From Aestuariibaculum sediminum (lineage in GTDB: Bacteria; Bacteroidota; Bacteroidia; Flavobacteriales; Flavobacteriaceae): a DNA stretch of 64,000 nt. Location of the stretch: assembly GCF_014596945.1 (NCBI RefSeq), contig NZ_JACVXB010000009.1:1-64000 (forward strand). The letters are read 5' to 3'. The position numbers and the translations under genes are program-made. The notes under the pieces were generated by a model that ran no database searches, was not told the DNA's origin, and was given only the letters and a program-made list of their open reading frames with translations. Positions within the stretch are counted from its first letter, which is position 1. Every line of letters starts with the position of its first letter. Positions 58,618-64,000 of this stretch are shown here, one piece after another.

Positions 58618-59301
58618 ATGCCGTTATCCTTAGTTAAAATACCAGAAGTTGTTAAAAAGATGTTCCCAAACTATGTTTGGGACATCCCGACTTCCGATAA
58701 GGTAATTTACCTGACTTTTGACGACGGACCAACCCCTGAGATAACCGATTGGACTCTAAAAATATTGAATGATTTTGAGGCAAAAGCCACATTTTTCTGT
58801 ATTGGAAACAATGTTGAAAAACACCCTGAAATTTTTCAAAATATTATAAAAACAGGTCATGCTATAGGCAATCACACCCACAATCATCTAAAAGGCTGGA
58901 AAACAAAGAAGCAAGACTACCTTAAAAATATTAAGTCCTGCGACAACGCATTTAAATTGCATTTAGCCAATTCAAATCAGGTTGAAGAAAACGAAAAGGA
59001 AGACAAAAATAAAAACATAAAACTTTTTAGACCGCCTTACGGAAGACTAACTCCTGGTCAGGGTAAAGCGCTTTTAGCGATGCATTATAAAATTATTATG
59101 TGGGATGTATTATCGTTTGATTGGGACATTAAAACCAGCAAGGAAGATTGTTTAAGCCATGTTATTAATAACACAGAAAAAGGAAGCGTTGTGGTGTTTC
59201 ACGATAGTATTAAGGCTTCTAAAAACATGCAATACGTCTTACCTAAAGTTTTAAAACACTTTACAAATTTAGGCTACAGTTTTGAATCAATACCTCATTA
59301 A
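58618..59301 (+). CDS. Polysaccharide deacetylase (NodB homology domain, CE4)
   Basis: The 227 residues are one NodB domain. All motifs are present: TFDDGPTPEITDWT (about 34-47, catalytic base Asp and metal Asp), GNHTHNHLKG (metal His pair), RPPYGRLTPGQ, MWDVLSFDWD and VVFHDSIKA (catalytic His). No signal peptide is evident, so the enzyme may be cytoplasmic or anchored by interaction. It is next to the DUF2723 gene and may modify the glycan made or used there. Its stop overlaps that of the next minus-strand gene by 4 bases. Confidence 0.93.
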   Translation: MPLSLVKIPEVVKKMFPNYVWDIPTSDKVIYLTFDDGPTPEITDWTLKILNDFEAKATFFCIGNNVEKHPEIFQNIIKTGHAIGNHTHNHLKGWKTKKQDYLKNIKSCDNAFKLHLANSNQVEENEKEDKNKNIKLFRPPYGRLTPGQGKALLAMHYKIIMWDVLSFDWDIKTSKEDCLSHVINNTEKGSVVVFHDSIKASKNMQYVLPKVLKHFTNLGYSFESIPH

Positions 59302-59594
59302 ATAAACTGCTGAACGATTCCAATAAGCGTATTGGCATCTTGCTCTCCGCTCTGTCGCCACTTCATTTCCCCTCCTTTGTAGATTATTAAAGTTGGAATC
59401 GCCTTTACACGTAAAGCTTCGGCAAGCTCCGCATTTTTATCAACATCTATTTTTATTACTTTAGCCTTATCGCCTAAGGCTGCCGCAACATCTCTTAAAA
59501 CGGCATGCATGGTTGAAGACTGTTCATTCCAGTCGGTAAAAAAATCTAACAACACCGGAATTTCTACATCAATAAGTTCCCCAAATTTTGACAT
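59298..59594 (-). CDS. Thioredoxin-fold protein without the active-site cysteines
   Basis: This 98-residue protein aligns with thioredoxin throughout: the strand before the site (VLLDFFTDW), the helix after it, IKIDVDKNAELAEALRVKAI, the cis-proline loop IPTLIIYKGGE and the terminal helix. The normal WCGPC is WNEQSS here: the sequence at about 59520-59535 is unambiguous in this window, and no Cys is present in the whole protein. It therefore cannot work as a dithiol oxidoreductase. A binding or chaperone-like function is possible. A TATATTTG box lies at 59613-59620. Confidence 0.9.
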   Translation of the reverse strand: MSKFGELIDVEIPVLLDFFTDWNEQSSTMHAVLRDVAAALGDKAKVIKIDVDKNAELAEALRVKAIPTLIIYKGGEMKWRQSGEQDANTLIGIVQQFI

Positions 59595-59612: not shown

Positions 59613-59620
59613 CAAATATA
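59613..59620 (-). promoter_or_regulatory. Candidate -7 box for the thioredoxin-fold gene
   Basis: The minus strand reads TATATTTG, 19 bases before the ATG. The expected TTG is not at normal spacing. The rest of the 192-base gap to the next gene shows nothing else. Confidence 0.35.
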
Positions 59621-59786
59621 CTTTTACAAACCTACACATTTTTTTCAAATTTTTGATATACGTGTTTTTTTGTAGCATATTTTACCACGTCCTAATATAA
59701 AAATACGCAATTTCTATAGGAATTACAACATTTAATAAATAATAGAAATATTACCGTTCACGATTAAAAAAATAAGCGTTTTATTA

Positions 59787-61022
59787 TTATGCCGTTACAG
59801 TACCCTTTTTAAGTTCTATAACGGTAATTTCTGGCCATATTCCAACGCGACCAGGAAACGCTAAATAACCAAAACCTCTATTTACATTAAGATATCTACC
59901 TGCTTCATTATACATTCCTGCCCAATATTTATAACGCCATTTAGCAGGACTCCATTTAAACCATCCCGGAATTTCGATTCCAAATTGCATACCATGAGTA
60001 TGACCGCTTAGGGTTAAATGATAATGATTGTCGTCATTTTTAACTTTCTTTTCCCAATGGGTCGGATCATGACTCATTAAAATTTTAAAATCATTTGCTT
60101 CAACCTGTTTCGTAGCCTTTTGTAAATCACCAGCTTTTTTAAATCCGCCTGTTCCCCAATTTTCTACACCTACCAAAGCCAAACGCTGGCCGCCACGTTC
60201 TATAAATCGACTTTCATTTAACAATAAATCAAAACCTATTTCCCTTTGAAGTGCTTTTAAATCTTCTAAATTTTGATGTTTAGCTTCTTCCGATTCCCAT
60301 GCCACATAATCACCATAATCGTGATTACCTAATACGGAATACAAACCGTCTTTAGCTTTTAGGTTACTAAATATTTTCTGGTAAGGCTTTAATTCATCAG
60401 CCTTGTTATTTACCATGTCGCCTGTAAACAAAATAACATCGCTATTTTGTTCGTTAATTAAATCTATCGCATATTCAACCTTATCAACATTATCAAAACT
60501 ACCTGAATGCACATCACTTATTTGAGTGACTTTATACCCATCGAAAGCCTCTGGTAAATCTTCAAATGTCAAGGTATATTTTAAAACCTTAAAATTGTAT
60601 TTTCCTTTATAAATACCGTATAATATGGAAGCAAACGGAATCGCTGATATACCTAAAGCGATTTTACTTATAAATTGACGACGCGACGCAAAATAATTGC
60701 CTTCGGCAGAATTTCCTTCTGTAAAATATCTATAAATTGCCTGTGGCACCCTGAAAATGTCTTCACCTAACATGGCTATCAACAAAATCATTTTTGGCAC
60801 GAGTAGCGCGATAAAAAACCCAAATGCAAAAGCGTGTCGATGTGTAAAACCATCGCTTCGGTTAAACCCGTAATAATTATATACAAAATTACCGATAACC
60901 AATAAAGACACTACCCAATACAAGGCTTGCACCCAATGGTTTCTGGTGACAGTTTTTAATGCCTGGAAGCCGTAAATATCGACAACTAAATAAAGTATTA
61001 AAAAGATAGCCCAACGCAACAT
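59787..61022 (-). CDS. Membrane-anchored metallophosphoesterase
   Basis: The first ~110 residues carry about three hydrophobic helices (LRWAIFLILYLVVDIYGF; QALYWVVSLLVIGNFVYN; AFAFGFFIALLVPKMILL). A second part starts with SRRQFISKIALGISAIPFAS, a twin-arginine-like segment inside the protein. The catalytic domain (about 150-411) has the full calcineurin-like set: QISDVHSG, FTGDMVN, LGNHDYGDY, LMSHDPTHW and LSGHTHGMQFG. The family (YkuE-like) acts on phosphoesters outside the membrane, but the substrate is unknown. It has an in-line -7-like TATCTTTG at 61037-61044. Confidence 0.9.
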   Translation of the reverse strand: MLRWAIFLILYLVVDIYGFQALKTVTRNHWVQALYWVVSLLVIGNFVYNYYGFNRSDGFTHRHAFAFGFFIALLVPKMILLIAMLGEDIFRVPQAIYRYFTEGNSAEGNYFASRRQFISKIALGISAIPFASILYGIYKGKYNFKVLKYTLTFEDLPEAFDGYKVTQISDVHSGSFDNVDKVEYAIDLINEQNSDVILFTGDMVNNKADELKPYQKIFSNLKAKDGLYSVLGNHDYGDYVAWESEEAKHQNLEDLKALQREIGFDLLLNESRFIERGGQRLALVGVENWGTGGFKKAGDLQKATKQVEANDFKILMSHDPTHWEKKVKNDDNHYHLTLSGHTHGMQFGIEIPGWFKWSPAKWRYKYWAGMYNEAGRYLNVNRGFGYLAFPGRVGIWPEITVIELKKGTVTA

Positions 61023-62095: not shown

Positions 62096-64000
62096 ATGTC
62101 TGATCAAAAACGTCTTTTTTTAGTTGATGCTTATGCCTTAATTTTTCGCGGATACTACGCCTTTATTAAAAACCCCAGAATAAACAGTAAAGGCATTGAC
62201 ACCTCTGCTATTATGGGATTTATGAATTCGCTTTTAGATGTTATAAAACGTGAAAAACCAGATCATTTAGCTGTATGTTTTGACAAAGGTGGAAGTACCG
62301 ACCGCGTGGAAATGTTTGAAGCTTACAAAGCGAATCGAGACGAAACACCGGAAGCTATAAAAGTAGCTGTACCCTACATTCAAAATATATTACAAGCCAT
62401 GCATATTCCGATTATGGTAAAAGAAGGCTATGAGGCCGACGACGTAATTGGAACACTGTCCAAACAAGCCGAAAAACAAGGCTATCAAACCTACATGGTT
62501 ACTCCCGACAAAGATTTTGCTCAGTTAGTAAGTGAAAACATTTTTATGTATCGCCCTAAGTCCTTTGGTGGTGGTTATGAAACCTGGGGTATTGAGGAAG
62601 TGAAGAAAAAATTTGAAGTTGAAAACCCATTACAGGTTATAGACTTTTTAGGTATGATGGGCGACTCGAGCGATAATATTCCTGGGCTTCCCGGAGTTGG
62701 AGAAAAGACAGCCAAAAAGTTCATTGCTCAATACGGTAGCATGGAGGGGCTTTTAGAAAACACGCATGAGCTAAAAGGTAAAATGAAGGAGAAAGTTGAA
62801 GCCAATAAAGAACTTGGTTTGCTATCTAAAAAACTAGCAACAATTATGCTTGATGTTCCTGTAGAATTCGACGAACACGACTTCGAAATGTCGGAACCAA
62901 ACATAGAAAAAGTCACTGAAATTTTTCAGGATTTAGAATTTAGAAATCTGCTAACTAATTTCTTAAAAACCTTTTCCGCAAATACGGAAGCCGCGAAAGA
63001 ATCTCCAAGTCCATCTAAAGCATCAGACACTAAAACGGAAACTATAAAAGAACCAACTTCAGCCGGAGCAGGTCAATTTTCACTTTTTGGAGGCGGCGAT
63101 GAAACACAAAGCGAAAGCACAGCATCTTACACAAGAAAAACTGCCGAAACCACATCTCACTTTTACCAAAGTGTTGCATCGGGCATGGCTACAAAATTAT
63201 TCGTTAAAAAATTAATGCAACAAACATCGGTATGTTTTGATACTGAAACTACCGACCTGAACCCACTCGCAGCCGAATTAGTTGGTATTGCTTTTTCATG
63301 GGAAACTGGCAAAGGATTTTATTTACCATTTCCGGAGGACAAAAGCGAAGCACAGAAACTTATCGAAGAATTACGACCGTTTTTTGAAAGCGAAAACATT
63401 GAAAAAATAGGTCAGAATTTAAAATACGACATAAAAGTATTAGCAAAATATAATATAGCCGTAAAAGGTAAATTATTCGACACCATGCTGGCTCATTATC
63501 TTATTAATCCAGATATGCGCCACAATATGGATGTTTTAGCTGAAACTTACCTGAATTACTCTCCGATTTCTATTGAAACTTTAATTGGCAAAAAAGGCAA
63601 GAACCAATTATCAATGCGCCAAGTACCTTTGGAAAAGCAAACAGAATATGCCGTAGAAGATGCCGATATCACGCTCCAACTTAAGGAACATTTCGAAAAA
63701 GAATTAGGCGAAGCCAGTACTCAAAAGTTATTCGATGAGATTGAAATTCCACTTTTACGGGTATTATCAGCCATGGAACTGGAAGGCATAAATCTGGACA
63801 AAGCCTTTTTAAACAGTTTATCTGATGCTTTAACCAACGATATCAAAACGCTTGAAAGTAAAATTTACGAAGCTGCCGGTGAGGAATTTAATATCGCCTC
63901 ACCAAAACAGTTAGGTGTTATATTATTCGAAAAATTAAAACTGGTCGACAAACCTAAAAAAACCAAAACAGGACAGTATGCAACAAGCGAAGATATTTTA
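62096..64000 (+). CDS. polA: DNA polymerase I, N-terminal 635 residues (cut by window end)
   Basis: The frame is open from the ATG at 62096 to the last base, so it is partial at its 3' end. The 5'-nuclease domain opens KRLFLVDAYALIFRGYYAF (residues 5-23), with VTPDKDFAQL and GDSSDNIPGLPGVGEKTAKK near residues 140 and 190. A poorly conserved, Ser/Thr/Glu-rich linker (about 302-355) contains GQFSLFGGG. The 3'-5' exonuclease-like domain appears intact: CFDTETTDLNPL (about residues 380-391, metal Asp and Glu), GQNLKYDIKVL and YAVEDADITLQL. The polymerase domain begins near residue 555 and lies mostly outside the window. Confidence 0.97.
   Translation, partial: MSDQKRLFLVDAYALIFRGYYAFIKNPRINSKGIDTSAIMGFMNSLLDVIKREKPDHLAVCFDKGGSTDRVEMFEAYKANRDETPEAIKVAVPYIQNILQAMHIPIMVKEGYEADDVIGTLSKQAEKQGYQTYMVTPDKDFAQLVSENIFMYRPKSFGGGYETWGIEEVKKKFEVENPLQVIDFLGMMGDSSDNIPGLPGVGEKTAKKFIAQYGSMEGLLENTHELKGKMKEKVEANKELGLLSKKLATIMLDVPVEFDEHDFEMSEPNIEKVTEIFQDLEFRNLLTNFLKTFSANTEAAKESPSPSKASDTKTETIKEPTSAGAGQFSLFGGGDETQSESTASYTRKTAETTSHFYQSVASGMATKLFVKKLMQQTSVCFDTETTDLNPLAAELVGIAFSWETGKGFYLPFPEDKSEAQKLIEELRPFFESENIEKIGQNLKYDIKVLAKYNIAVKGKLFDTMLAHYLINPDMRHNMDVLAETYLNYSPISIETLIGKKGKNQLSMRQVPLEKQTEYAVEDADITLQLKEHFEKELGEASTQKLFDEIEIPLLRVLSAMELEGINLDKAFLNSLSDALTNDIKTLESKIYEAAGEEFNIASPKQLGVILFEKLKLVDKPKKTKTGQYATSEDIL

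Follow-up and report, generated by a model that had tools for sequence, protein, structure and literature searches.

Thioredoxin serves as the processivity factor of T7 DNA polymerase, and calsequestrin, phosducin and ERp29 are examples of thioredoxin-fold proteins without cysteines, all of them eukaryotic and remote in sequence from the protein described here. To our knowledge, redox-dead thioredoxins occur chiefly as eukaryotic specialists or as single domains of larger proteins. That the thioredoxin fold class has members without cysteine is a long-standing finding (PMC2757866). In bacteria, the accessible text of two further papers describes the thioredoxin domain of Escherichia coli CnoX, which is without oxidoreductase activity and serves proteostasis (PMC6282202), and a Salmonella TrxA variant, C33A C36A, that still binds most of the response regulators tested (PMC9584953). 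Here we describe a gene for a cysteine-free thioredoxin paralogue of 98 amino acids (the pseudo-thioredoxin) from Aestuariibaculum sediminum, a member of the Flavobacteriaceae. It lies in a stretch of 64,000 nucleotides (the window; positions 1 to 64,000 of contig NZ_JACVXB010000009.1, assembly GCF_014596945.1). Among the open-licence papers listed by our literature searches, we saw none on a cysteine-free thioredoxin of Flavobacteriaceae.

The gene is on the minus strand (59298..59594) and reads from an ATG start through 98 codons to a TAA stop, with no cysteine in its translation. Pfam Thioredoxin (PF00085) matches residues 4–94 at 54.6 bits (cut-off 23.5, E = 1.2e-14), which places the protein in the thioredoxin domain family, and its Pfam matches are of thioredoxin type only. 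With the NCBIfam thioredoxin equivalog TIGR01068 it scores 65.7 bits, below the cut-off of 96.8, and so falls outside that equivalog. An AlphaFold2 model based on a 53-row alignment (mean pLDDT 91.4) predicts a whole thioredoxin fold. Solved chains align with the model over 94–98 residues at Z 15.6–17.1 (50 matches listed), and the structures listed by Foldseek and VIA-align 2 are mainly thioredoxins, whether natural, ancestral or designed. Alignment to thioredoxins places W22-N23-E24-Q25-S26 (codons at 59517..59531, minus strand) in the position of WCGPC, and I66-P67-T68 (59391..59399, minus strand) at the cis-Pro loop. Of the attributes of a thioredoxin oxidoreductase, the protein has the fold, as modelled, and the cis-Pro loop, and it lacks the CxxC catalytic pair (WNEQS). 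Without cysteine, thiol–disulfide exchange of the CxxC kind is impossible, and it follows from the sequence that this chemistry should be beyond the protein. The original prediction, made from the letters of the window, had described an untruncated thioredoxin-fold frame with no cysteine and a retained cis-Pro loop, and had proposed structure prediction as a check; the complete frame, the translation, the Pfam match, the alignment and the model all agree with it. It was also right that WCGPC had been replaced, although the replacement that it gave, WNEQSS, is one residue too long for a five-residue motif. Because general thioredoxin domain models match this redox-dead protein well, the case is a warning for annotation.

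The loss is shared by the homologues. We examined 164 orthologous loci, picked by score or position and independently of the motif (30 from a search of 199 genomes of the family, and sets of 80, 20, 12, 8 and 14), which yield 144 distinct sequences. CxxC is absent from the best match in all 164 loci. The loss is thus shared by homologues, the check that the original prediction had asked for, and close relatives with CGPC, which would have spoken against it, were sought and not found among these loci. Counting cysteines within the 98 aligned columns only, 134 of the 144 distinct sequences have none. Eight have a single cysteine at position 26, where the second CxxC cysteine would stand, as in WDEAC (L125, L129, L135, L136, L163, L167, L147 and L148), and two further orthologues have one at position 17 (L146 and L168). 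Six of the eight fall into one nested group of the tree, and the position-26 cysteine may be a regain or a late retention. The complete lack of cysteine is therefore usual in the family without being invariant; the invariant trait is the absent CxxC pair. The loop itself takes the forms WNEQS, WNDQS, WNEAS, WSEPS, WDEAC and many that occur once, some with a one-residue deletion nearby. We also split aligned rows by motif into 133 without CxxC (null rows, which lack it by construction) and 68 with it, leaving out rows with more than 20 gaps; the loci L192 and L220 (the latter a stretch of 100 bases) did not enter the analysis. P67 is present in 131 and T68 in 132 of the 133 null rows, one of which (L222) comes from outside the family. 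Asp17, which we take to be the buried acid of thioredoxin catalysis, is retained in 112 of the 133 null rows versus 67 of the 68 CxxC rows. Among 27 matches examined from outside the family, 26 have CxxC and one (L222) has WCGPF.

Most of the family has the gene. A best match at E = 1.3e-30 or better occurs in 185 of 199 same-family genomes, including that of A. sediminum, a count by score in which not every copy was read; the CGPC sibling of the same genome reaches only 2.9e-21 in this search, far weaker than the 185 orthologues. Four weaker copies that we read (G022, G023, G089 and G186) lack CxxC and begin M-x-K-F-G, and two of the four divergent copies (at L165 and L167) adjoin the gene that is usually next to orthologues, for a phosphoesterase; for these reasons we take all four as divergent orthologues, which brings the total to 189 of 199. 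By score, 23 of the 27 genomes of at most 1.9 Mb retain the gene (a hand tally of assembly sizes, several of them incomplete). The named carriers belong to the Flavobacteriaceae, among them Winogradskyella, Psychroserpens, Zobellia and Gillisia, and a few bins bear other labels. On three contigs filed outside the family, under Cytophagales (L042), Chlorobiota (L053) and Cytophagaceae (L103), the copies share 81–88% identity with the protein of A. sediminum, a sign that these bins may have been misassigned. To examine the family boundary, we searched a sample of 392 genomes from the phylum and one of 296 from the order, all of them 90% complete or better, with a profile built from 17 orthologues. 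All 46 same-family genomes in the phylum sample score at least 121.8 bits, and the matches listed from outside the family reach at most 106.5 bits there and 107.8 bits in the order sample.

The genome of A. sediminum also keeps CGPC thioredoxins. The CGPC sibling (G000:C19:12452-12742) has the same length, a thioredoxin domain, 41% identity to the pseudo-thioredoxin and the same W-R-Q-S-G after the hairpin. It differs in keeping WCGPC, in that Asp17, CxxC and G65-V66-P67-T68 are invariant in 27 genomes, and in having relatives in other families and classes of Bacteroidota as well. In Gillisia mitskevichiae the cysteine-free copy has a WCGPC sibling (L115:1172-1487, minus strand) some 4.5 kb away; of the 164 loci, many of them short, this is the only one in which the two occur together. 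At three loci (L213, L214 and L231) a longer second frame with a thioredoxin domain (WCAPC or WCTPC) stands beside the CGPC sibling.

A tree of 115 rows over 98 columns, with four TrxA rows as the root, groups the 56 cysteine-free rows in a single clade (SH-aLRT 97) among Bacteroidota CxxC siblings; the stem of this clade measures 0.51 changes per site. Its closest CxxC rows, L157 and L222, are both from outside the family (support 82–85) and are not the Flavobacteriaceae siblings. With so few columns and such long branches, the tree would fit a duplication in the ancestor of the family, an older duplication and a transfer alike. We hypothesize that a Bacteroidota CxxC thioredoxin was duplicated or transferred at or close to the origin of Flavobacteriaceae, that both catalytic cysteines would then have been lost, in a single event by the evidence of the tree, and that the gene was retained by most of the family. 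In a DNA polymerase I (Pol I) tree, two gene-less genomes (G035 and G128) branch off before the rest of the family at modest support, the placement of G128, a long branch, being unsure, and four others (G016, G053, G116 and G158) are nested. These positions suggest a gain at the root of the family or close to it, followed by a few losses.

The gene is under purifying selection. Pairwise comparison of 18 closer copies gives 153 pairs, of which 37 have a dS in the range 0.05 to 1.5; their median dN/dS is 0.056. Because a contrast between close null copies (132 null rows, L222 being left out) and phylum-wide CxxC rows would be biased, we relied on 27 matched genomes for which both a cysteine-free copy and a CxxC sibling were available, and in which mean pairwise identity is 63% for the former and 65% for the latter. 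At sites 22–26 pairwise mismatch is 0.64 in the null copies versus 0.01 in the siblings, a rise in variability that ranks first of 93 five-site segments by mismatch and third by entropy. The order is reversed at sites 3–8 (0.08 versus 0.46). Seventeen sites never vary among the 27 null copies (M1, K3, F4, G5, L7, P13, L15, F18, V36, I49, N54, A60, L61, Y72, M77, W79 and R80), and the gain in constraint is confined to helix 1, helix 4 and single sites. The pattern is unchanged after removal of eight of the more diverged genomes. Constraint has thus moved from the active-site loop to helix 1, and such a reversal at similar divergence points to a changed job and not to a lost function. The original prediction that the protein is maintained by selection for another role is thus supported by the uniform lack of CxxC, the single clade, the dN/dS of about 0.06 and the moved constraint.

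With constraint left on the fold and on sites that the siblings leave free, the plain reading is a protein-binding adaptor, and we consider it probable that this is a pseudoenzyme, a redox-dead thioredoxin acting as a non-catalytic adaptor or docking protein. Judging from sequence, it most likely binds protein, by the surface and in the location proposed here. A partner would sit on a non-catalytic surface that includes helix 1 (K3, F4, G5 and L7), the end of helix 3 (A60 and L61) and the last hairpin (M77, W79 and R80), while the former active-site loop drifts. With no evident N-terminal signal, the protein is presumably cytosolic. By analogy, docking without cysteines is on record for TrxA, where the likeness would be cysteine-independent binding through the thioredoxin surface (accessible part of PMC9584953), and a redox-dead bacterial domain is on record in CnoX (accessible part of PMC6282202). 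Regulator docking by TrxA and service to the T7 polymerase differ in being side jobs of an active thioredoxin, whereas the catalytic pair is gone from the pseudo-thioredoxin.

Several observations weigh against this reading. dS is close to saturation in most pairs. Mismatch in the cis-Pro loop is higher in the null copies (0.31) than in the siblings (0.12), and the last hairpin is about equal in the two (0.20 and 0.23). Thioredoxins bind partners through the cis-Pro loop, and a looser loop together with an equal hairpin implies that binding may take place elsewhere than in the classical groove. The gene is missing from 10 of the 199 genomes (G003, G016, G035, G053, G055, G112, G116, G128, G140 and G158), which have CxxC thioredoxins or nothing; five of the ten are at least 90% complete and five are less so. 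The divergent copies look relaxed, and their scores of 93–110 bits match or approach those of CxxC siblings, an overlap that leaves G023 and G186 assigned by sequence only; coming from outside the boundary samples, these copies also blur the gap between same-family and outside scores.

The pseudo-thioredoxin gene is flanked by convergent genes on one side. A polysaccharide deacetylase gene (58618..59301, plus strand) overlaps it by the TTAA at 59298–59301, a palindrome that allows both TAA stops to be read from one four-base stretch; at several other loci the two genes end within a few bases of each other. Beyond it lies a convergent gene for a TMEM260-like protein of 1,102 amino acids (PF11028; 55306..58614, plus strand). 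In sets of loci that we term close (80), diverse (46) and short (8), the deacetylase is beside the orthologue in 74, 23 and 2, respectively, and the TMEM260-like gene in 76, 40 and 2. On the other side are a metallophosphoesterase gene upstream on the same strand (59787..61022, minus strand; PF00149, with a top NCBIfam match to YaeI that is below cut-off) and the divergent polA gene for Pol I (62096..64000, continuing on the contig to 64945; plus strand).

Before the start, TAGGTTTG (59627..59634, minus strand) is a predicted sigma-A −7 box, matching TAnnTTTG, and TATATTTG (59613..59620, minus strand) is a second predicted box of this form. TAnnTTTG is the flavobacterial sigma-A −7 consensus in the accessible text of PMC9723704. 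Of the close orthologues 64 of 79, and of the diverse ones 32 of 54, have it between 20 and 55 bases ahead of the start codon, where dinucleotide shuffles would give 2.8 and 1.6; its reverse complement is absent from the same interval. No −33 TTG at a fixed spacing from the −7 box was seen upstream of the orthologues. Among CxxC siblings, 4 of 20 have TAnnTTTG within 120 bases upstream. The conserved box predicts that the gene probably has its own transcription. Several thioredoxin genes of F. psychrophilum change expression (PMC5787105), and one thioredoxin family gene is tabled under promoters and alternative sigma factors (PMC9723704); the orthologue of the pseudo-thioredoxin may or may not be among these genes.

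Other explanations must be set against the adaptor reading. A fast active-site loop, ten genomes without the gene and four very divergent copies are what a decaying pseudogene or neutral relic might leave, yet the low dN/dS, the 17 invariant positions and the retention in most small genomes contradict this view, which we regard as scarcely credible; recent decay in particular is rejected on the lack of CxxC at all 164 orthologous loci examined together with the dN/dS. A holdase or chaperone partner that receives or delivers unfolded clients would follow the precedent of CnoX, likewise a bacterial thioredoxin domain without oxidoreductase activity. CnoX, however, has SXXC, another cysteine and a tetratricopeptide repeat (TPR) domain (accessible part of PMC6282202), whereas the pseudo-thioredoxin is a lone domain of 98 residues with no cysteine for mixed disulfides. 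The fusion of a thioredoxin domain to TPR that marks a CnoX chaperedoxin is missing, so the protein is not a CnoX, and we consider a chaperone role of this style quite improbable. A further rival reading is a soluble subunit or regulator of the neighbouring phosphoesterase. The gene for that enzyme is upstream on the same strand, at gaps of 46–302 bases, in 74 of the 80 close loci (75 of which had room for it), 36 of the 46 diverse and 4 of the 8 short loci. The phosphoesterase was found in 20 of 20 sampled same-family genomes, and six of the ten genomes that lack the pseudo-thioredoxin lack it too, including G116 (96% complete) and G128 (99%). Against this, the phosphoesterase occurs without the pseudo-thioredoxin in four genomes (G016, G053, G112 and G158), it has relatives at E = 1e-30 or better in 75 of 178 genomes outside the family, and the pseudo-thioredoxin gene has a promoter-like box of its own. 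Conversely, in six (G004, G058, G067, G186, G187 and G188) of 11 genomes, chosen mostly for non-adjacent genes or small genome size, the pseudo-thioredoxin occurs without a detectable phosphoesterase; G004, G187 and G188 are 93–99% complete, the gene in G187 being known from score only. Each gene thus occurs without the other, and an obligate partnership is not borne out. A role as subunit or regulator of the enzyme is unlikely in our estimate, though some of these data favour a looser link, and the phosphoesterase is the natural first candidate partner.

The original prediction had pointed to a ribosome- or polymerase-like complex and to a comparison with the T7 factor, and polA is indeed a recurrent neighbour: it is divergent within the examined stretch at 33 of the 46 diverse and 25 of the 80 close loci, and at most 400 bases from the gene at five loci (L123, L124, L140, L149 and L162). 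In A. sediminum it starts about 2.5 kb from the pseudo-thioredoxin gene and encodes a product of 950 amino acids. T7 polymerase holds thioredoxin by a large insertion in its thumb. Through its polymerase part, the Pol I of A. sediminum aligns with Klenow (589 residues against 594), and no gap is longer than about six residues, which leaves Pol I without such an insertion and does not support a polymerase of the T7 type. Where polA adjoins the gene, the usual intervening phosphoesterase is missing, so the adjacency may follow from phosphoesterase loss. A PolA match is absent in 2 of 30 genomes tested (G003 and G211), and six of the genomes that lack the pseudo-thioredoxin do have polA (G016, G035, G053, G116, G128 and G158). 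A processivity or accessory factor of Pol I is therefore very unlikely, and for Pol I the polymerase suggestion is unsupported, even as the idea of selection for another job stands.

What distinguishes the pseudo-thioredoxin is that it is a lone, widely fixed bacterial redox-dead thioredoxin, in a fold class whose cysteine-less members were already known (accessible part of PMC2757866). Nature has in effect run an experiment here: one cell holds two versions of one fold, a catalytic sibling and a copy that has lost catalysis and is constrained on a different surface. As a tentative extension of the adaptor reading, which we hold possible and no more, the protein might define the family, as an almost ubiquitous adaptor or subunit in some central process of the cytosol, kept even in small genomes and working through a surface that varies in the sibling. 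The identity of the partner would show which job a thioredoxin scaffold keeps without redox chemistry, and may reveal a new part of flavobacterial physiology.
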